Assembly: GCA_009692615.1 (NCBI GenBank)
Contig: SHYW01000002.1
Location: 1-64,000, forward strand
Direction of reading: 5' to 3'
Source: Deltaproteobacteria bacterium
Lineage (GTDB): Bacteria > Desulfobacterota > Binatia > UBA9968
DNA: 64,000 nucleotides
The position numbers were made by a program, and so were the translations under genes. Numbering within the stretch: the stretch's first letter is position 1; each line of letters starts with the position of its first letter. Positions 53,061 through 63,445 of this stretch are shown in pieces. Under the pieces are notes generated by a model, which was not told the origin of the DNA, made no database searches, and was given only the letters and a program-made list of their open reading frames with translations.

Positions 53061-53960
53061 TCAAGCTCGCTGAGCAAGGTCGGTCTTCGCCAACTCCTCG
53101 ACAAACTTCACCAGCCCGGAGTGATCGAGATCGCCGAGCCCCATGCCTTTCATCGCGGTCATTATTTGACCGACGACGCCGGTGACCATCAGCGGCACGC
53201 CATATTCTGAGCCAGTCGCGAGGGCGATCTTCATGTCCTTCTCGTGCAAACGGATGCGGAAGCCGGGCTTAAAATTTCGGTCGAGCATTTTCTGACCATG
53301 GGCTTCGAGGATTTTCGACTGGGCGAAGCCGCCGAGCAGCGCTAGTCTGACCTTCGCCGGATCGACGCCGGCTTTGGCGGCGAGCACCAGCGCTTCGCTG
53401 ACGATCGCGATGGTCGTGCCGACGACCATTTGGTTTGCGGCTTTGGTTACCTGTCCGGCACCAGCGTCGCCGACATGGACGATATTTTTGCCGAGCTTCT
53501 CGAAGATCGGCATGGCACGTTCGACCGCCGACGTTTTTCCGCCGATCATGATCGATAGCGCCGCGGCGATGGCGCCAGCTTCACCACCGCTCACCGGCGC
53601 GTCGAGCATATCGCAGCCGCGCTTTTCGGCTTCCACGGCAAGCTTGCGCGCGACCACCGGCGAGATGCTCGACATGTCGATCAGTAACGTTGCCGATTTT
53701 ACACCGGCGAAGATGCCTTGCTCACCGGCGTAAACTAATTCCACATCCGGTGAATCAGGCAGCATGGTGATGATGACTTCGCTGCGCGCCGCGACTTCTT
53801 GCGAATTCGCCGCAACCTGGGCGCCTTCTTTGCTCAGCTCATCGACCGCCGCGCGGCTCCGGTTATGAATTACCAAAGGATATCCTGCTTTGAGTAGGTG
53901 GCGCGCCATGGGTTTGCCCATGATGCCGAGACCGATGAAACCGAGGGTTGGGTTGCTCAT
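53061..53960 (-). CDS. garR: 2-hydroxy-3-oxopropionate reductase/3-hydroxyisobutyrate dehydrogenase family
   Basis: It has 299 residues. The NAD(P) motif is GFIGLGIMGKPMA (residues 7-19); 'DAPVSGGEAGA' is the substrate-binding signature and 'GQVTKAANQ' carries the catalytic lysine. The protein would reduce tartronate semialdehyde to glycerate, linking to glyoxylate and to the glycolate oxidase genes at 60864-64000, but family members act on several beta-hydroxyacids. Confidence 0.85.
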   Translation of the reverse strand: MSNPTLGFIGLGIMGKPMARHLLKAGYPLVIHNRSRAAVDELSKEGAQVAANSQEVAARSEVIITMLPDSPDVELVYAGEQGIFAGVKSATLLIDMSSISPVVARKLAVEAEKRGCDMLDAPVSGGEAGAIAAALSIMIGGKTSAVERAMPIFEKLGKNIVHVGDAGAGQVTKAANQMVVGTTIAIVSEALVLAAKAGVDPAKVRLALLGGFAQSKILEAHGQKMLDRNFKPGFRIRLHEKDMKIALATGSEYGVPLMVTGVVGQIMTAMKGMGLGDLDHSGLVKFVEELAKTDLAQRA

Positions 53961-54072: not shown

Positions 54073-55038
54073 CTACGGCAAGTAGCTCAGATCGATGACC
54101 TGCTGCGGCGTGACGCTTTTCGCTTTGGGATTTTCTTTCACTAGTTCGTCGATGGCCAATTGGATTCCCTTCAACGTCGGTTTGCCGTCGTCTGGGAAGG
54201 CGCGGGCGCGGAAGTTGTAGTCGGCCTCGGCAAGCTGGCGGTCGTCGGTACGGATCGCTTTCATGGTTTCTTTGACGGCGCCCTCGCGGTTGGTTTTGTA
54301 GTAACGGATCGATTCAACATAGGCGCGCAGGAAACGGCGCAGCGCGTCGGGATTGTTTTTCAAATAGTCGCCGCGACTGACCACGCCGGTCATCTGATAA
54401 TCGATTTCCTTTTCGGCGAAGTCGACTAGGGGATTCAGGCCGGCTTTCTTGGCGACATGGCTGACGCCAGAGATCAGCGACGTCGCGTCGATGCTGCCCG
54501 CTTGTAGCGCGTTGATGCGCCCCACCGAGCCGCCGCCTTGGATAAATTTTACGTCGGTCTTGAGATTCAATCCGAGCTGCTCCAATGCCATCCTAGTCGC
54601 CAGTTCGTCGGTGCTGCCGTAGCGCGTGATGCCGACGACTTTACCTTTGAGTTGCGCGGCGCCGGTGATGTTGGGCCGGCTGAAAAACGTGTAGGGAAAA
54701 CGGTTATTGACGCCGCCGACGATCTTCACGTCGGCGCCTTCGACGTAGCCGTGCAGGAAAACCGTGGCGCTGGTGGTGATGATGTCGAGGCTTTTCGCGA
54801 GCAACACCTGCATAGCCACTGGACCGCCGGTGATTAGAACAATTTCCAATTCGAGATTATGTTTCCTGAGAATGCCGGCGTCTTTGGCCAAGGCGAAGGC
54901 GACTTTTTCAGTGCTGGTGGCGGCGGTGGTGCCGAGGCGAATCTTGGTGACTTGGGCGTCGGCATTGCCCATTGTCAGCGCGGCAAAGAGTGCGAGTAAG
55001 AATACAGACAAGCTTCTCAAGATTAGAATTTCTCCCAT
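54073..55038 (-). CDS. NMT1/TauA-type periplasmic solute-binding protein
   Basis: It has 321 residues. The signal peptide (core SVFLLALFAALTMG) is cut near ADAQ; the mature start is 'TKIRLGTTAATSTEKVAFAL', then 'DAGILRKHNLELEIV'. 'AAQLKGKVVGITRYGSTDEL' and 'KFIQGGGSVGRINALQAGSI' are landmarks. No transport partners adjoin it. Confidence 0.87.
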   Translation of the reverse strand: MGEILILRSLSVFLLALFAALTMGNADAQVTKIRLGTTAATSTEKVAFALAKDAGILRKHNLELEIVLITGGPVAMQVLLAKSLDIITTSATVFLHGYVEGADVKIVGGVNNRFPYTFFSRPNITGAAQLKGKVVGITRYGSTDELATRMALEQLGLNLKTDVKFIQGGGSVGRINALQAGSIDATSLISGVSHVAKKAGLNPLVDFAEKEIDYQMTGVVSRGDYLKNNPDALRRFLRAYVESIRYYKTNREGAVKETMKAIRTDDRQLAEADYNFRARAFPDDGKPTLKGIQLAIDELVKENPKAKSVTPQQVIDLSYLP

Positions 55039-55176: not shown

Positions 55177-55860
55177 ATGGAAACAAAAATATTTTCATGG
55201 CTGGGCAGAGAGTTTGTCGAGATTGTCGGCGAAGCGCGAACCGGTGTGGCGGTCGAGGCCGCGACCGCCGAGTTGTTTCAGAGATTCGCCGACACCCTCA
55301 GTCCGCTCGGTTTGTCGCTCGATAACGCGGTGCGGATTCGGGTCTTCGGCCGCGACCGACAGGCGCGTACAGACGCGACGGTGGCGCGCTCCATGGTTCT
55401 CAACGGCAACCGGCGCGCCGCGAGTTCGAGTTTCATATCGCAGGAATGGTACGATTCGAACGGCGCCGCTGGACTGGAACTGCTGGTCATGCGGCCGCTG
55501 AATTCCGCCGCGCGAAGACAGCCGGTCGATTTCGTACCGGCGCGCAATTATCTCTGCTATCTAGTTTACGATTCGCTGTTGTTTTTCTCCGGCTTTACTT
55601 CCGAGGGGGCGACTTTGGCAGAGCAGGTTAGTGATGTGCTCGGCACCTTGGATCGCGCCTTCGCGCGGGCGCAAACCGATTGGTCGAAAGTGAAAAAATT
55701 ATCGTTGTTGCTGCAACGCGGTTCAAATGTTGACAAGGTGCGGCAAGTTCTTGCCGCCGCTAATCGTCTGAGCGTGCCAGACATAGAGTTTACGTTTGTC
55801 GATGGTTTCGCCGGCGAAAAATATTTGGTCGAGATCGAGGCGACGGCGTTGGCTGTTTAG
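55177..55860 (+). CDS. RidA-like (YjgF/YER057c/UK114 superfamily) protein
   Basis: It has 227 residues from ATG 55177; an upstream open frame is not protein-like. Two RidA-like alpha/beta modules are suggested by 'AELFQRFADTLSPLGLSLDN' followed by a strand RIRVFG, and by 'GTLDRAFARAQTDWSKVKKL' followed by SLLLQ; the C-terminus 'GEKYLVEIEATALA' matches the fold's last strand. The catalytic arginine of true RidA deaminases is not clear, so only the fold is proposed. Confidence 0.55.
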   Translation: METKIFSWLGREFVEIVGEARTGVAVEAATAELFQRFADTLSPLGLSLDNAVRIRVFGRDRQARTDATVARSMVLNGNRRAASSSFISQEWYDSNGAAGLELLVMRPLNSAARRQPVDFVPARNYLCYLVYDSLLFFSGFTSEGATLAEQVSDVLGTLDRAFARAQTDWSKVKKLSLLLQRGSNVDKVRQVLAAANRLSVPDIEFTFVDGFAGEKYLVEIEATALAV

Positions 55861-56040: not shown

Positions 56041-57048
56041 TCACTTCTTCCAAAACAGCTCCCTGAATTCTTTCTCGTATTCACTAACCTTGCGGAACAT
56101 GTCGGCGGGGACGTAGTGGATTTTTAGCGCGGCTTGATCGAGCTTCGAGATTGTCGGTTTGACGCTCGGACGGACCGGTACGCGTGACAGGTTCTTGATG
56201 ATCGTTTGACCTTCTTCCGACATGACGTAGTTGATCAGCAGCTTGCCGGCATTGGTATGGGGAGCTTTGGTCGAGAGCGCGATGACATTGATCGAGGTGA
56301 CGATGGGATCGGACGTGGCCGACCAGTCGACGCGCGCGCCTTTTTGTTTGAGCTGTTCGATCTCGAAGGGAAAAACCAGCGCGGCGTGAAATTCTCCCGC
56401 CGCGAGTAGCTGGGCAAGCAGACTATGGCCGCGGCGGAGCTGCGGCTGTTGCGCCGCCAGGGCGCGCAGAAATTTTCCGGCTTTCTCCCGGCCCCAGTAG
56501 TCGACCAGCGTGCCGTACCACTCGAACTCTTCTTCGTCCATGGCGAACTTGCCCTTCCAAAAGGGCGCGAGTAAATCATTCCAATCCTTGGGGCGATCCT
56601 TTTCGCCGAGCATCGCGGTGTTGTAGCCGATCACGAAGTTGCGCGCATAGATCGCGGTGAAGTTTTTGTCGCGGTCTTTGGCACGCGCCGGATAGGCTTC
56701 GGCTTCCGGCGGGTCATAGGCTTGCAGCAGGTTGCGCGATTTGAGCAAGCCCATCTCCATGCTGCTGACGCTCACGACATCGGATAAAAATTGGCCCGCC
56801 GAGGTTTCCGCCAACACGCGCTGGCGCAGCTTCTCGCCGGTGCTGCGCAGCACTTGAACTTTGAGAAACGGATATTTTTTGCTGAAGCCGGCAACGATCG
56901 CCTGGTTATCGCCGGCGGAAGTGGTGGTGTACCAGACGACTTCCTTGTCGTTCTTCGCGGCGGTGGTGAGTGAATTCAAATCGGCCTGCGCCCAAGCGTC
57001 GATTCCAAATAGCAACGCAATGATCAGCAGCGCAAAAGTTTTTTTCAT
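56041..57048 (-). CDS. Family 1 (AfuA/FutA/PotD-like) periplasmic solute-binding protein
   Basis: It has 335 residues. The signal peptide MKKTFALLIIALLFGIDAWA is cut before QAD. 'KEVVWYTTTSAGDNQAIVAG' and 'ERVLAETSAGQFLSDVV'-like segments, 'RNFVIGYNTAMLGEKDRPKD' and 'YVMSEEGQTIIKNLSRVPVR' are typical of the ferric-iron/thiamine/polyamine class, unlike the TauA-type proteins elsewhere in the window. It follows the diiron protein gene by nine bases and has no permease or ATPase neighbour. Confidence 0.88.
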   Translation of the reverse strand: MKKTFALLIIALLFGIDAWAQADLNSLTTAAKNDKEVVWYTTTSAGDNQAIVAGFSKKYPFLKVQVLRSTGEKLRQRVLAETSAGQFLSDVVSVSSMEMGLLKSRNLLQAYDPPEAEAYPARAKDRDKNFTAIYARNFVIGYNTAMLGEKDRPKDWNDLLAPFWKGKFAMDEEEFEWYGTLVDYWGREKAGKFLRALAAQQPQLRRGHSLLAQLLAAGEFHAALVFPFEIEQLKQKGARVDWSATSDPIVTSINVIALSTKAPHTNAGKLLINYVMSEEGQTIIKNLSRVPVRPSVKPTISKLDQAALKIHYVPADMFRKVSEYEKEFRELFWKK

Positions 57049-57057
57049 CGGATTTTC

Positions 57058-57729
57058 TTAGGCGTACTCGCGATAGAGACCTTCGAATTTGCCGAGCTTG
57101 ATGCGCACCATGTATTGAGCGCTTTCACGAACCAGCCGTTCCTCACGGGGGGTTTTGACCATCTTGGCGATCAGCTCCGCCGAGCGCGCGGTGTGGTCCT
57201 GGTCGGCGACCATGTGGACGGAGAAAAACGTCAGGTCGCGGTCCGAGAGGCCGTAGTATTTGCGGCCGGCGTTCAAGAATTCTTTCGAGTAACGGCAGAC
57301 CATGCTTTCGCTGGTCAGCGCCGAGGCGCGATTTTGCGGCGCGTAGCCCATCAGCGTGTTGTAGACCGTGCGCGCGGAATGAATCTGACATTCGAACATC
57401 TGCGTCGCCTCGCTGAAGTCTTCTTCTTTGAGACCGATGGCGAGGCCAAAGCGTTTCGCCAAGTCGGGGTGGCTTTGCTCTTCGGTGAATTGCTCGGTGA
57501 AGTAGTCGAACATCACCGGCTCGTGGGCGTTTTTCACCATGCCGAGCGCGAAGGACTTTAGAATCGCTTTGTTGTGCAGGTAGTGCTGGATCGCCCAGCC
57601 CTGCATTCTTTTGAGCGATAATTTGCCCGCGCGCAGTTCGGTGAAATACTGCGTGTCCAGCAAACTCTGAATGCCTGGTTCGATGATTTCTTTTCTTACC
57701 GAATCAACGAGCGCTTTGCCGTCTATCAT
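57058..57729 (-). CDS. Haem-oxygenase-like diiron protein (TenA/PqqC/CADD/UndA type)
   Basis: It has 223 residues from ATG 57729; the AAAGGAG seven bases upstream decides this start over 57747. It is all-helical. 'WAIQHYLHNKAILKSFALGM' and 'TEQFTEEQSHPDLAKRF' (E-x-x-H) and 'FFSVHMVADQDHTARSAELI' (H-x-x-x-D-x-x-H) match the ligand pattern of haem-oxygenase-like diiron oxidases; a middle 'TSESMV' offers the third acid. Members include pABA synthase CADD and fatty-acid decarboxylase UndA. It is the middle gene of an operon between two different binding proteins. Confidence 0.75.
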   Translation of the reverse strand: MIDGKALVDSVRKEIIEPGIQSLLDTQYFTELRAGKLSLKRMQGWAIQHYLHNKAILKSFALGMVKNAHEPVMFDYFTEQFTEEQSHPDLAKRFGLAIGLKEEDFSEATQMFECQIHSARTVYNTLMGYAPQNRASALTSESMVCRYSKEFLNAGRKYYGLSDRDLTFFSVHMVADQDHTARSAELIAKMVKTPREERLVRESAQYMVRIKLGKFEGLYREYA

Positions 57730-57764
57730 ATAAAACTCCTTTGCCAACTGATTACTGACAACTA

Positions 57765-58748
57765 TTATTTCCCAGCCAACACCTGATCGAGCAAGCTGTA
57801 GTCGGTTACCGCGGCGACATTGACTGGCGCCGGGATCTGCTTCTGAGCATAAGCTAGGTCAAAATATTCTTGCATGTCTTTGATCGCGATCTTGCCATCC
57901 GCTGTCAGCGTCGACAGCCATTGCTCATAAACCGTCTCGGCGATTTTTTGCTCGATGCGCCAGCGCTCGCGAATGTAATTGACCACCCAGTTGCGCTCCT
58001 TGTGGCTGAATGCGTTGGCGTCGAGCATGACGCGCATGACGCTCTTGATGCGGTTGGCGTCGTTTTTTAGTCTGACGTCGTTGACCACTAAGCCGCTGGT
58101 GGGAAACTGCATGGGCAACTCGTCCGCCGAGGCGATCTGGCGAAATCCTTTTTGCGTCATGATGACGTTATGCGGGCCGGAGAGCACCGCCGCCGACACC
58201 GCGCCTTGGCCGAGACTGGTTACGGTGTTCGACACGGAACCGGTTTGCGTGAAACTAACCTTTTCCGGATCGCCACCCTTCGCCTTCAATAGCAGACGCA
58301 CGACCAAATGCTGCAAGCTGCCGATGCGATCGACGCCGATGCGTTTGCCGGCGAGATTGCTGACGGATGAAACGGTTGGCTCGGCGACGAGAAAGAACGG
58401 CGGCTTGCGCAGGCCGATCATCACGCCCTTGAGCGGCGCGCCTTGGGCGGTGGCGACGATGCCGGTGGTGTAGCCGGTCAAGAAGTCTATTTCACCGGCG
58501 GCTAGCGCTGCCACCGGCAACGGGCCGGCCATCTGAATCAACTCGACATCAATGCCATGCTTTTTGAATAAGCCGGCGTCGCGGGCGATGAAGATATTCA
58601 AAAACGAGACGCTGAAGGCGGAGTAGGCCATGCGCACACGGCGATTGTCTTGAGCGAGCGCGCCACCGGCAATTAGCAACGGCAGTAGAAAGACTAGCCA
58701 CGCGATGCGCGGCTGGAAGCTTCGATTGCTTGATGTCTTACCAGTCAC
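57765..58748 (-). CDS. NMT1/TauA-type periplasmic solute-binding protein
   Basis: It has 327 residues. The signal peptide (core AWLVFLLPLLIAGGALA) is cut before QDN. 'FLNIFIARDAGLFKKHGIDV' is the family opening and 'VSNLAGKRIGVDRIGSLQHL' the second-lobe landmark. It is the first gene of a three-gene minus-strand operon with the diiron protein (35 bases on) and the family 1 binding protein. Confidence 0.87.
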   Translation of the reverse strand: MTGKTSSNRSFQPRIAWLVFLLPLLIAGGALAQDNRRVRMAYSAFSVSFLNIFIARDAGLFKKHGIDVELIQMAGPLPVAALAAGEIDFLTGYTTGIVATAQGAPLKGVMIGLRKPPFFLVAEPTVSSVSNLAGKRIGVDRIGSLQHLVVRLLLKAKGGDPEKVSFTQTGSVSNTVTSLGQGAVSAAVLSGPHNVIMTQKGFRQIASADELPMQFPTSGLVVNDVRLKNDANRIKSVMRVMLDANAFSHKERNWVVNYIRERWRIEQKIAETVYEQWLSTLTADGKIAIKDMQEYFDLAYAQKQIPAPVNVAAVTDYSLLDQVLAGK

Positions 58749-58873: not shown

Positions 58874-60097
58874 TTATGCCTGCGGGATCACCAGCAACGC
58901 GCCGGCCCGGACGAAGCGGGCTTGGCGCAGGCCGTTGGCTTGTAAGATGCGCTGCACCGATGCGTTGTAACGGCGGGCGATTTGAAAAATCGTCTCACCC
59001 GGTTTGACTCGGTGGTGCACTACCTGAGTTTGCACCGCCGGTTGGCGCGTCGTTGGCTGCGCTTGGACGACGGCGACGGGCGGTTCACTGCTGCGATCTT
59101 GCGGTAGCTTTACGCGATAACCGGCCGGCGCGATGCTCATGGCCGGGCTCAGTGCCGGGTTCCAACTGAGCAACTCGTCGCGGCTCAAGCCGCTGGTCTT
59201 GATCAACGAAGCGACTGAAGTGTTGGCGCTCAGCTGAATTTCTTGCACGGGCGCCGCCGGCTCGAGTTTGAGTCCGGGAAAGTATTGATCGTACTTGCTG
59301 CCGATCTCGACCGCGGCGAGGAATTCGGCATAAAAGTGTTTCGGCGCGAAGCCAAAGTAGGGATGTTGATAACGTTGAATCAGATCGACGAGGTTATTCG
59401 AACCGACTTCGCGGACGGCGCGAGCGATGCCGGCGGGGCCGTAATTATAAGACGTGATCGCCAGCGGCCAACTGCCCAAGAAATCGTAGGCTTGTTTCAA
59501 ATAGGCCGCGGCGGCGCGAGATGCGTCGTAGGGATCGCGCCGTTCGTCGATGGCGGCGTTGACGCGCATGTACTGGCGCCCGGTGGCGGGCATGAATTGC
59601 CAAATGCCCAAGGCGCCGACCGACGAACGGGCGCTGTTGTCGTAGGACGATTCGACGATCGGCAAATAGGTCAGCTCCGCCGGTAAACCACGCTCGCGAA
59701 AAATTTGCTGGATCTGGGCGATGTATCGGCCCGAGCGTTTGATGCCGGCGGCGGTGCGTTCTTTGACGCCGCGCTGGGCTTTGACGCGCTCGATGTCGAC
59801 GTTGTTGGCCGCGGCGATGCGGGCGCGCTCGCCATTGATATATTCGTTGCTGCGGCTGTCTGGGCCGACATCGTTCGCTTCGTAGATCTTGCTCGGATCC
59901 TGAGGATCGAAGTAGATCAACTGGGCGAGACTATATTCGGTGAAAATCTTTTTCCAGAATTCGATCGATGACTCGAGTCCCGCCGGGATCGGAAACGAAT
60001 ACTGACTGGACGAATTGATTTGGGCACCGACCTGGGCCGGCGCAAAAGCCAAAACGCATATCAACAGAAGTGAGAACCGCCTCATATGTGCACCCAT
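58874..60097 (-). CDS. Lytic transglycosylase with LysM domain (MltD-like)
   Basis: It has 407 residues from ATG 60097, fixed by a near-perfect AAGGAGGTGA. A signal peptide (core FSLLLICVLAFAPAQVGA) is followed by an SLT domain with catalytic Glu149 in 'LPIVESSYDNSARSSVGALG' and the G-I-W-Q-F and 'ITSYNYGPAGIARAV' motifs. A linker rich in Gln, Pro and Val leads to a C-terminal LysM ('HRVKPGETIFQIARRYN'). An extra degenerate LysM-like segment ('SANTSVASLIKTSGLSRDEL') precedes it. It cleaves peptidoglycan in the periplasm. Confidence 0.92.
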   Translation of the reverse strand: MGAHMRRFSLLLICVLAFAPAQVGAQINSSSQYSFPIPAGLESSIEFWKKIFTEYSLAQLIYFDPQDPSKIYEANDVGPDSRSNEYINGERARIAAANNVDIERVKAQRGVKERTAAGIKRSGRYIAQIQQIFRERGLPAELTYLPIVESSYDNSARSSVGALGIWQFMPATGRQYMRVNAAIDERRDPYDASRAAAAYLKQAYDFLGSWPLAITSYNYGPAGIARAVREVGSNNLVDLIQRYQHPYFGFAPKHFYAEFLAAVEIGSKYDQYFPGLKLEPAAPVQEIQLSANTSVASLIKTSGLSRDELLSWNPALSPAMSIAPAGYRVKLPQDRSSEPPVAVVQAQPTTRQPAVQTQVVHHRVKPGETIFQIARRYNASVQRILQANGLRQARFVRAGALLVIPQA

Positions 60098-60333: not shown

Positions 60334-60867
60334 ATGCGGCGAAATTTAGTTGGGGGGTTGGATTTGGAATATTCGACGTTAGTTTTGCTGGCGGAAGCGG
60401 TGCTGCGCGCGATCTTGGGTTGGCGCATGTTGATCAGCGGCGTGAGCAATGTCCAGCGCTGGCCCAATCCGGTGCAGACCGCGAGCATCTTGTTTCCCAA
60501 GGGCGCGACTTTTTTCGGCGCGGCGGCGACCTTTTTAATGATCGTCGGTGGTTTCGGCACGGCGGTGGGATTTCAGACGCCGATCTGCGCGGTGATGATT
60601 ATTATTTTTCTGCTGCCGACTTTCGCTCTGCACTGGCATTGGCTCAAAGTGCTGCCGACCATGGTGCCGGTCGTCCAAGCGGCGCTCAAAGACGACAAGA
60701 CGAAAAATTATTTTCGTTCCTTCGACCGGCAATCCTATCATGCCCACGAAGTCGGCCTGCGCGACAATTTGGTTTTCGTTTCCGCCGCAGTTTATTTCGC
60801 CGTCAAAGGCAGCGCCGGCTTCGGCATCGACAATTGGCTCAGTAATTGGGTTATCCGATTCTTCTAA
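60334..60867 (+). CDS. DoxX-like membrane protein
   Basis: It has 177 residues from ATG 60334; a TTG at 60364 preceded by GGGGGG is an alternative start. There are four membrane helices; 'AEAVLRAILGWRMLISGVSN' and 'GATFFGAAATFLMIVGGFGT' resemble the DoxX/SURF4 quinone-reductase-like family. The C-terminal 'NLVFVSAAVYFAVKGSAGFG' is the usual fourth helix. It converges with the glcE gene (4-base overlap of ends). Confidence 0.6.
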   Translation: MRRNLVGGLDLEYSTLVLLAEAVLRAILGWRMLISGVSNVQRWPNPVQTASILFPKGATFFGAAATFLMIVGGFGTAVGFQTPICAVMIIIFLLPTFALHWHWLKVLPTMVPVVQAALKDDKTKNYFRSFDRQSYHAHEVGLRDNLVFVSAAVYFAVKGSAGFGIDNWLSNWVIRFF

Positions 60868-62141
60868 AGACCAGCGACGAATCGTCCTGGATTGAGAATT
60901 GTCTGCGGGTCGAACTTCTGTTTGATTTCGCGCATCAGCGCGAACGCCGGCGGCGTCGGCCCCCAAACTTCTACGCCCTGCTTGAGTGCCGCCGGCGCGG
61001 CGAACATGACCGCGTAGCCGCGCTCTTGTCGAGCTAACTCGATCAGTCGTGAAAACTCGCCGGCGAAAGCGCGATTCGCCGGACCGGCAAACCATATAAT
61101 GCCTAGCGCCATGTCGGCGGCGATCACTGTCGTCGCGGTCTGAGAATTTTCTCGTGCGCGGATCATCGCCTTCAGTGATTTTCGCGGTATCGTCAAGCGA
61201 AAAGCCAACTGTTCAGCGGCGAAAGGCAGGTCGCGCAGATCTTGCCAGAGATGCTGAGCGCTTTGTGCTGGCAGCGATTCGCTACGCATGCCGAGCTGTT
61301 GCGCCATGGAATCTACTTCGCGCAGCTGGCGCGCGACGGTTTCGGCGAATCCTTCGAAGCTGACCGCGAGCTGCCAATTTTTCTCGCCGTCGCCGCGCAG
61401 AAACAGTGCGGCGGGTAGCAGTTTCGAATTGTTAATTGCGTCGGCTAATTCTTCAACTTGTTTCAAGCTGCCCTGAGCGACGGCGCTGGCGCTGTGCTCT
61501 GGAATCGGTGCGACGCGCATCGTCAATTCCGTGATGATGCCCAAAGTGCCGAGCGAACCGGTGAACAGTTTACACATGTCGTAGCCGGCGACGTTCTTGA
61601 CGACTTTGCCGCCGGCTTTGATCTGCTCGCCGGAAGCGAGCGCGACTTTCATGCCGATCACCAGATCGCGCACGGCGCCCCAACTGCTTCTTCGCGGCCC
61701 ATACAAATTCGCCGCGACTATGCCGCCGAGAGTCGCGCGTTCGGGAAACGGCGCATCGAAGGGCGCGAATTGTTTTTGCTTCGTCAGCTCCGCTTGCAGA
61801 GCGTTCAGCGTCATGCCGCTTTGTACCGTAACGGTGAGATTGGCGGCATCGTGTTCGATCAATCGATTCAACTGCGTCGTGGCGATGACCACGTCGGCTT
61901 GGCGCGGCGGATTGCCGAGCGCCATCGCCGTGCCGCCGCCCCAGGGAATCACCGCCGCTCGAACGCTATTGCAAATTCGTAGCGCGACGGCCAACTGTTC
62001 TGCTGACACCGGTTGGCAAATCAACGCCGGGACTTTGCCATCGACGGCGTGGGCCGCCAGTGTGCTGGGTTCGGTGCTGACGTTGGCGGCGCCGAGTTCG
62101 CTTTCGAGTTGGCGCGTCAGTTGCTCGGCGGAGATTTTCAT
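60864..62141 (-). CDS. glcE: Glycolate oxidase FAD-binding subunit
   Basis: It has 425 residues from ATG 62141, which overlaps the glcF TGA by four bases (ATGA); the frame is open far upstream inside glcF but is not protein-like there. The PCMH-type FAD domain is seen as 'VIPWGGGTAMALG', 'ERATLGGIVAANLYGPRRSS' and 'KNVAGYDMCKLFTGSLGTLG'. The C-terminus 'KFDPQTILNPGRFVAGL' is characteristic. Part of the glycolate:acceptor oxidoreductase GlcDEF. Confidence 0.93.
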   Translation of the reverse strand: MKISAEQLTRQLESELGAANVSTEPSTLAAHAVDGKVPALICQPVSAEQLAVALRICNSVRAAVIPWGGGTAMALGNPPRQADVVIATTQLNRLIEHDAANLTVTVQSGMTLNALQAELTKQKQFAPFDAPFPERATLGGIVAANLYGPRRSSWGAVRDLVIGMKVALASGEQIKAGGKVVKNVAGYDMCKLFTGSLGTLGIITELTMRVAPIPEHSASAVAQGSLKQVEELADAINNSKLLPAALFLRGDGEKNWQLAVSFEGFAETVARQLREVDSMAQQLGMRSESLPAQSAQHLWQDLRDLPFAAEQLAFRLTIPRKSLKAMIRARENSQTATTVIAADMALGIIWFAGPANRAFAGEFSRLIELARQERGYAVMFAAPAALKQGVEVWGPTPPAFALMREIKQKFDPQTILNPGRFVAGL

Positions 62142-63445
62142 TTCGTCTCGGCGTCGTCGTCGCCGTAGGCGCGATCGAGCAAGTCCATTAAATGGTAGAC
62201 GGTAACGTTGGGGCCGTAGGTTTGCGCGCCGTAGCGCAGCTGCAACATGCAGCCGGGATTGGGCGCGACCACGGCGTCGGTATGCGTCGCGCTGACGGAC
62301 TGCATTTTTTCCTTGAGCAGATGCTGCGACATAACTGGATGCGTAATGTTGTAAATCCCGGCGCTGCCGCAGCAGCGGTCGGAACCTTCCATCTCGACCA
62401 GCTTCACACCGGGAATCGCTTGCAAGAGTTGGCGCGGCTGGCGGCGAATTTTTTGTCCGTGCGCGAGATGGCAAGGATCTTGATAGGTGACGGTCATATT
62501 CACTGGCGTCATTGCGCCGACCAGGCCGAGGTCGGCGAGAAATTCGCCGGCGTCTTTGACCAAGTTGCTAAAGCGTTTCGCTTTTTCGGCATACTCGGCG
62601 TCGTCACGCAGCAGGTAGTCGTATTCCTTCATCGCCGCGCCGCAACCGGCTGCGTTGACGACAATGGCGTCCACTTCCGCTTCGAGGAAGGCGTCGATGT
62701 TGCGGCGCGCCATTTGCTTTGCCGCCACGTTCTCGCCGTTGTGCGTGTTGAGCGCGCCGCAACAGATTTGCCGCATGGGAAAGATCACTTCGCAACCGTT
62801 AAGCCGCAGCACGCGCACGGTGGCGGCATTCACTTCGCCGAACATCAGCGGCATGACGCAGCCGTTGAGCATGGCGACCCGGGCGCGGCGCGGGCCGATG
62901 GCCGGCAGAACATTCGCTTCAGGCTGAAAAAACTTTTTCGCCATCGCCGGCAGCATGGCGTCCATGTCGCGCAGTTTCTGTGGCAGTAACGGACGCAGGA
63001 GTTTTTGCAGTCCGCTGCGCTGGTACAAACGCAGGAGTGCGAAGGCGAGCTTGAGACGGTTGGGAAAAGGCAACAGCTGGGTGAAGACGAAATGCAATAT
63101 CGCTTGCGCCATGGGCGAGCCCGGCGGGCCGATATGCTCGCGGGCGGTTTCAGCGATGCGGCCATATTGCACGCCGGACGGACAGGCGCTCTCGCAGGCG
63201 CGGCAGAGCAGGCAGAGATAAATATGTTCTTTGAAGCGTTCGCTAAGTTCGATGCGTCCATCGGCGGCGGCTTGGACCAAATGAATTCTACCGCGCGGCG
63301 ATTCCGGTTCGAGACCGGTGGCGCGGTAGGTCGGACACTGATTTAAACACAAGCCGCAGTGAACGCACTGGTGCAGTTCGGCGAGATCGAGACTCGCGAT
63401 CGCCGGCTTGTCGCCAGGCTCGATGTGATGATGGGGATGAGCCAA
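62138..63445 (-). CDS. glcF: Glycolate oxidase iron-sulfur subunit
   Basis: It has 435 residues from a TTG start at 63445, three bases after the glcD stop. Two [4Fe-4S] motifs (HQCVHCGLCLNQCP and 'LLCRACESACPSGVQYG') are followed by two CCG domains ('MRQICCGALNTHNGE' and 'MEGSDRCCGSAGIYN'). It passes electrons from glycolate oxidation to the respiratory chain. A His-rich N-terminus (HPHHHIEPGD) is notable. Confidence 0.94.
   Translation of the reverse strand: MAHPHHHIEPGDKPAIASLDLAELHQCVHCGLCLNQCPTYRATGLEPESPRGRIHLVQAAADGRIELSERFKEHIYLCLLCRACESACPSGVQYGRIAETAREHIGPPGSPMAQAILHFVFTQLLPFPNRLKLAFALLRLYQRSGLQKLLRPLLPQKLRDMDAMLPAMAKKFFQPEANVLPAIGPRRARVAMLNGCVMPLMFGEVNAATVRVLRLNGCEVIFPMRQICCGALNTHNGENVAAKQMARRNIDAFLEAEVDAIVVNAAGCGAAMKEYDYLLRDDAEYAEKAKRFSNLVKDAGEFLADLGLVGAMTPVNMTVTYQDPCHLAHGQKIRRQPRQLLQAIPGVKLVEMEGSDRCCGSAGIYNITHPVMSQHLLKEKMQSVSATHTDAVVAPNPGCMLQLRYGAQTYGPNVTVYHLMDLLDRAYGDDDAETK

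Follow-up and report, generated by a model that had tools for sequence, protein, structure and literature searches.

A heme-oxygenase-like dimetal oxidase gene recurs beside an orphan binding-protein gene in a deltaproteobacterial genome and its relatives

We analyzed a 64,000-nucleotide stretch of deltaproteobacterial DNA (the window; contig C2 of the genome designated G000) and found in it a gene for a heme-oxygenase-like dimetal oxidase (HDO) that directly follows a gene for an NMT1/SsuA-family periplasmic binding protein. The recurrence of this adjacency in orthologues and paralogues is more than chance. We tentatively favor the view that the cytosolic HDO and the periplasmic binding protein act jointly in catabolism, scavenging and oxidizing a small compound that would be imported by a shared permease. 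The features of the region are the following.

53061 to 53960, minus strand: 2-hydroxy-3-oxopropionate (tartronate semialdehyde) reductase, garR-like (TIGR01505, 354.8 bits, above the cut-off of 340.75)
54073 to 55038, minus strand: second NMT1-type binding protein, downstream and outside the conserved pair (PF09084, 1.9e-17)
55180 to 55860, plus strand: RidA-like (Ribonuc_L-PSP) gene, separating the second NMT1 gene from the operon
56041 to 57048, minus strand: SBP_bac_6-type periplasmic binding protein, the optional third gene (PF13343, 6.4e-21)
57058 to 57729, minus strand: HDO-like dimetal oxidase/oxygenase, 223 aa from the ATG (PF14518 and six ligands), no evident signal peptide
57736 to 57741, minus strand: ribosome-binding site AAGGAG of the HDO gene, read directly from the sequence
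57765 to 58748, minus strand: NMT1/SsuA-family (TauA-type) periplasmic binding protein with an N-terminal signal-like segment (PF09084, 6.6e-23)
58874 to 60094, minus strand: lytic transglycosylase (SLT) with LysM, the upstream syntenic neighbor (PF01464, PF01476)
60864 to 62132, minus strand: glycolate oxidase subunit, GlcE-like (NF008439, 197.7 bits)
62138 to 63445, upstream of the GlcE-like gene: glcF, from its position and homologues in loci L036, L039 and L042
63449 to 64000, upstream of the GlcE-like gene: glcD, cut by the window end, assigned on the same grounds

A preliminary description of this DNA had reported three closely packed genes, and this arrangement is confirmed: on the minus strand the order is NMT1, HDO, SBP_bac_6, and the genes are 35 and 9 bases apart. 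Pfam searches revealed no permease or ATPase gene adjoining the operon and no PF00528 match on the window contig, and no other catabolic enzyme is encoded inside the operon. Signal-like hydrophobic N-termini are present in the sequences of both flanking binding proteins and not in the HDO; the natural reading is therefore that the binding proteins are periplasmic and the HDO cytosolic. Against TIGR01728, the model for SsuA/TauA sulfonate-binding proteins, the NMT1 protein of the window scored 83.4 bits, under the cut-off of 163.5. The HDO gene likely starts at ATG 57729, which lies six bases after AAGGAG and is also where the orthologues begin. The mechanically called ORF opens earlier, at TTG 57747, and residue numbers are counted here from that TTG (subtract 6 for numbering from the ATG).

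The HDO matched PF14518 (iron-containing redox enzyme) at 50.2 bits (3.6e-13), exceeding the cut-off of 28.9, and PF03070 more weakly (36 bits, 6.7e-9). The motifs named when it was described as a haem-oxygenase-like diiron protein, E90-x-x-H93 and H178-x-x-x-D182-x-x-H185, are indeed present, and in an alignment of 21 homologues all of these ligands, together with E147, are unchanged. Judged from this alignment, the six residues are the full 3-His/3-carboxylate (3H/3C) set of heme-oxygenase-like dimetal oxidases, the ligand set of the HDO superfamily (PMC13108848). An Fe2 cofactor and O2 chemistry would be expected from such a set. Three further residues, H55, E119 and H123, are likewise invariant in the 21 homologues and are candidates for lining the substrate pocket. 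An AlphaFold2 model meant to show the seven-helix haem-oxygenase fold, built from two sequences (the window protein and that of L007), reached a pLDDT of only 39 and was discarded. L007 is the closest named record, from a MAG labelled Syntrophobacter sp. SbD2; it matches genome G011, and the taxonomy of its label may not apply to this lineage. We conclude that the protein is a new subfamily within the known HDO superfamily.

By sequence, the nearest solved structures to the HDO, and its closest characterized relatives, are CADD and the p-aminobenzoate (pABA) synthase of Nitrosomonas (NePabS). This kinship, together with a match of 70.2 bits to TIGR04305, could be taken to mean that the HDO is a CADD-type self-sacrificing pABA synthase, an analogy that had been drawn in the preliminary description; however, the cut-off of that model, 200 bits, is not reached. 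Self-sacrificing pABA synthases require Tyr27 and Lys152 in CADD numbering (PMC11965152). The sacrificial tyrosine (Tyr27/Tyr25) aligns with F35, an invariant phenylalanine, and the amine-donor lysine (Lys152/Lys159) aligns with F157, a position occupied by histidine in L043 and L044. Phenylalanine at both self-sacrificing positions contradicts the analogy, and we regard a pABA synthase as virtually out of the question. The PF03070 match, next to a gene of PF09084, the superfamily of ThiY, would instead be in keeping with a true TenA thiamin-salvage hydrolase working with a ThiY-like binding protein. However, G000 has a separate, strong TenA (C47:18296, 161 bits) that lacks all six ligands in the same alignment, whereas the HDO keeps them. 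Moreover, no Rfam match, to a TPP riboswitch or otherwise, was found in 50-64 kb of the window, and no thi genes lie beside the HDO gene. The residues, rather than a structure, thus indicate that the HDO is not a true TenA, the placement that would have spoken against the preliminary description, and that assignment is extremely improbable.

To describe the distribution of the pair, we refer to homologous loci by L-numbers. Strong homologues of the HDO were found in 19 of the 25 genomes of the family and in 28 of the 148 genomes of the class, all confined to one order and, within it, to two families; among 395 sampled genomes of the phylum there were none outside the class, and viral contigs and plasmids yielded none. 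A search of genome contigs returned only one near-identical locus. Within the branch to which the window gene belongs, an NMT1 gene lies directly upstream of the HDO gene in the window, L036, L037, L039, L040 (with a 315-base gap) and L041, orthologues that share synteny and are not all independent cases. A diverged paralogous pair (58% for the HDO and 46-49% for the binding protein) is found in L043 and L045, in genomes that also carry the first pair. The pair is likely present in L097 too, with the binding-protein gene split in two pieces. In L042 and L044 the HDO gene stands alone, with no NMT1 partner. When a profile of the window NMT1 protein was run against 24 genomes, the best eight matches all adjoined an HDO gene and the next three, close homologues, did not. 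In addition, the pairwise identities of the two partners correlate (r=0.95 over 8 pairs), which fits duplication of the unit and common descent. Together, these sequence comparisons show that the NMT1-HDO pair is conserved and moves between contexts, and that it has probably been duplicated as a unit. The proposed functional link between the TauA-type binding protein and the HDO is thereby supported. Co-occurrence of all three genes in relatives held only in part, for this pair; the SBP_bac_6 gene is limited to the window, L036 and L039, 3 of about 10 orthologous loci.

In a more distant branch, the surroundings of some HDO genes differ: a different NMT1 protein is encoded downstream in L035, L049 and L053, a major-facilitator transporter near the HDO gene in L046 (by Pfam) and L047, and Liv-type transporter genes in L051 and L052 (by inspection). 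Long ORFs beside the HDO genes of L091, L092, L093 and L087 were rejected as neighbors; they look like antisense artefacts, and those of L091, L092 and L087 have no Pfam match.

The genome as a whole puts this adjacency in perspective. G000 (5.05 Mb) contains at least 150 PF09084 (NMT1) genes, with 479 first-look candidates, about 117 PF13343 (SBP_bac_6) genes and at least 150 Amidohydro_2 (PF04909) matches, and only 80 PF00528 matches, many of which are the two halves of one fused permease. Orphan binding proteins have thus multiplied to a very great extent in this genome. Some of the genes stand in tandem arrays, four NMT1 genes at C85:19028-22675 and at least five SBP_bac_6 genes at C56:5035-11180. 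Because binding proteins are so abundant, some adjacency to enzyme genes is expected, and the chance reading needed testing: the HDO and the binding protein might have no joint function, their proximity being a by-product of several hundred orphan binding proteins and short-range synteny. NMT1 genes account for 17 of 382 sampled gene models, and the SLT gene is syntenic with the pair too, as this reading would have it.

HDO genes are themselves numerous in G000, which has 26 PF14518 HDO-like genes, 23 of them above the curated cut-off (about 25 HDO genes); of 14 control genomes, just 2 gave a match in the same search. Five of the ligands are kept in nearly all the aligned genes, and the position of D182 is mostly D, sometimes E or N. 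A same-strand NMT1 gene lies within 100 bp of 8 of the 26 HDO genes (C2 in the window, C62, C147:4774, C17, C160, C79, C180 and C93:6005) compared with 12 of 325 background genes (3.7%; Fisher p=2e-5), an approximately eightfold excess over a hand-chosen background of non-SBP genes in 400 kb of other sequence, obtained with an NMT1 profile built partly from HDO neighborhoods, a threshold set during the work and some HDO genes that belong to one cluster. One of the eight neighbors, at C79 (L158:4475-6601), is a 708-aa ORF whose NMT1 binding-protein part continues into what resembles a double-cupin domain, either a real fusion or the result of a lost stop codon; leaving it out gives 7 of 26 (p=1.5e-4). 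An SBP_bac_6 gene on the same strand within 100 bases was seen for 0 of the 325 background genes. In a distance test on the PF09084 matches listed (at least 150), 4 of the 26 HDO genes were near an NMT1 gene against 1.3% expected (p=3e-4). The same test on the same matches gave 9 of 138 for Amidohydro_2, also against 1.3% expected, and 1 of 38 for luciferase-like genes, no excess. The NMT1 association is therefore not unique to HDOs, a result that favors the by-product explanation. Against that explanation stand the survival of the pair where the remaining synteny is lost (L037, L041, L043 and L045), the excess of NMT1 neighbors at HDO genes, and the NMT1 clade whose best eight members all adjoin an HDO. 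We consider a mere by-product somewhat unlikely, though it must be weighed seriously.

The third gene had been described as encoding a ferric-iron-type binding protein, which suggested iron supply to the enzyme or import of an iron chelate that the HDO would degrade. At the level of the superfamily the description stands, since iron-binding proteins are among the nearest solved structures; the best curated models are those of 2-aminoethylphosphonate-binding proteins, far under their cut-off. FbpA-type ferric binding proteins are defined by a Tyr-Tyr pair of iron ligands. Such a pair is absent throughout the window SBP_bac_6 protein and its two orthologues, and the window protein has no tyrosine at all in residues 185-273. 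Given that this pair is lacking and that the gene is optional, missing from most orthologous loci, iron supply is not supported; with no permease or ATPase nearby either, we judge a role in iron or chelate import very unlikely. A second operon, with the order NMT1, HDO, SBP_bac_6, NMT1 and start/stop overlaps, was found at C180 (L159:1-2995), its HDO being distant from that of the window. The earlier statement that no system of this composition has been described holds in the literature searched; the arrangement is not as unusual as it seemed, with binding proteins everywhere in the genome and this second operon besides.

We then considered what the HDO might act upon. Near other HDO genes of G000 are genes for gentisate/5-aminosalicylate-dioxygenase-like cupins, UbiD-type hydroxyaryl decarboxylases, amidohydrolases (Amidohydro_2) and class II aldolases. 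In a sister family (L080-L085), an HDO orthologue (57-59%) is encoded by the first gene of an operon that also specifies a luciferase-like monooxygenase and a gentisate/5-aminosalicylate-dioxygenase-like cupin. A divergent TctC binding-protein gene accompanies that operon, and past it L080, at least, carries one more HDO-like gene. Around the window pair, the garR-like reductase gene adjoins the HDO gene in L039 and L042, which represent two other genera; the order glycolate oxidase genes, HDO, tartronate semialdehyde reductase is repeated in L039 and, without binding proteins, in L042. These flanking genes are a hint of C2/C3 acid products. Characterized HDOs are mostly biosynthetic, making natural products and cofactors (PMC13108848), and by analogy the enzyme could make a metabolite or signal that the binding proteins recapture or sense. 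However, no NRPS, carrier proteins or ligases are among the conserved neighbors, and relatives of the HDO adjoin enzymes of catabolic type, so that we find a biosynthetic role unlikely. It is these neighbors, and the glycolate oxidase and tartronate semialdehyde reductase flanks, that lead us to favor catabolic oxidation.

In the catabolic model, the NMT1/SsuA-type protein would capture a small, probably anionic, organic compound in the periplasm, and a permease and ATPase presumably encoded elsewhere in the genome would import it. The HDO would then oxidize the compound at its 3-His/3-carboxylate dimetal center, with Fe(II) and O2, for entry into central metabolism. The SBP_bac_6 protein would serve as an optional extra capture protein and not as an iron supplier. 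Both the catabolic role and the import through a shared permease are what we infer from gene context. Points against this model are the absence of permease and ATPase genes from the surroundings, the sheer number of binding proteins, the HDO genes of L042 and L044 that have no NMT1 partner, the three close NMT1 homologues that adjoin no HDO gene, and the lack of a further catabolic enzyme in the operon. A broader proposal, which we put forward with more reserve and hold to be possible if on balance doubtful, is that the HDO fold has radiated in this lineage into many catabolic oxygenases, many of them matched to their compound by an orphan binding protein working with common permeases. If that proposal is correct, the window operon is one capture-and-oxidize module and one of the first HDO systems of a catabolic kind. 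Functional validation exists for only about a dozen HDOs (PMC13108848). A lineage in which about 25 HDO genes neighbor those of orphan binding proteins and of enzymes for aromatic acids would add a catabolic half to the superfamily. Each binding protein also gives experiments a way in: identifying its ligand would reveal the substrate of the HDO, which is hard to read from sequence.

Several known systems invite comparison. CADD and NePabS share the His/carboxylate ligand set with the window HDO, and NePabS also the phenylalanine at its F177 position (F174 in the window HDO); in contrast to both, the window HDO has neither the sacrificial tyrosine nor the amine-donor lysine and sits in a different operon. 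The first glutamate ligand is spaced ExxH, as is reported for UndA, unlike the E81...H88 of CADD. The 3-His/3-carboxylate pattern is that of UndA and other 3H/3C HDOs, and those characterized have fatty acids or amino acids as substrates and are mostly biosynthetic (PMC13108848). We found no literature describing UndA-type or other 3H/3C HDOs with orphan binding proteins and, in the open-access literature, no description of an HDO with a binding-protein partner or a catabolic role; as far as we searched, the pairing of an HDO with an orphan binding protein is undescribed, and so is a genome whose HDO genes, about 25 in number, lie in surroundings that look catabolic. TenA/ThiY salvage modules combine the same broad fold family with an NMT1-family binding protein; unlike them, the window HDO has dimetal ligands, absent from the TenA of G000, and has neither thi genes nor a riboswitch around it. 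Orphan binding proteins have expanded in other bacteria as well, examples being the Bug proteins of Bordetella and the 434 TTT-family binding proteins of Rhodoplanes (PMC5994714). As in those bacteria, binding proteins far outnumber permeases in G000; in contrast to them, the families expanded here are NMT1 and SBP_bac_6 rather than TctC, and they are coupled to HDO genes.
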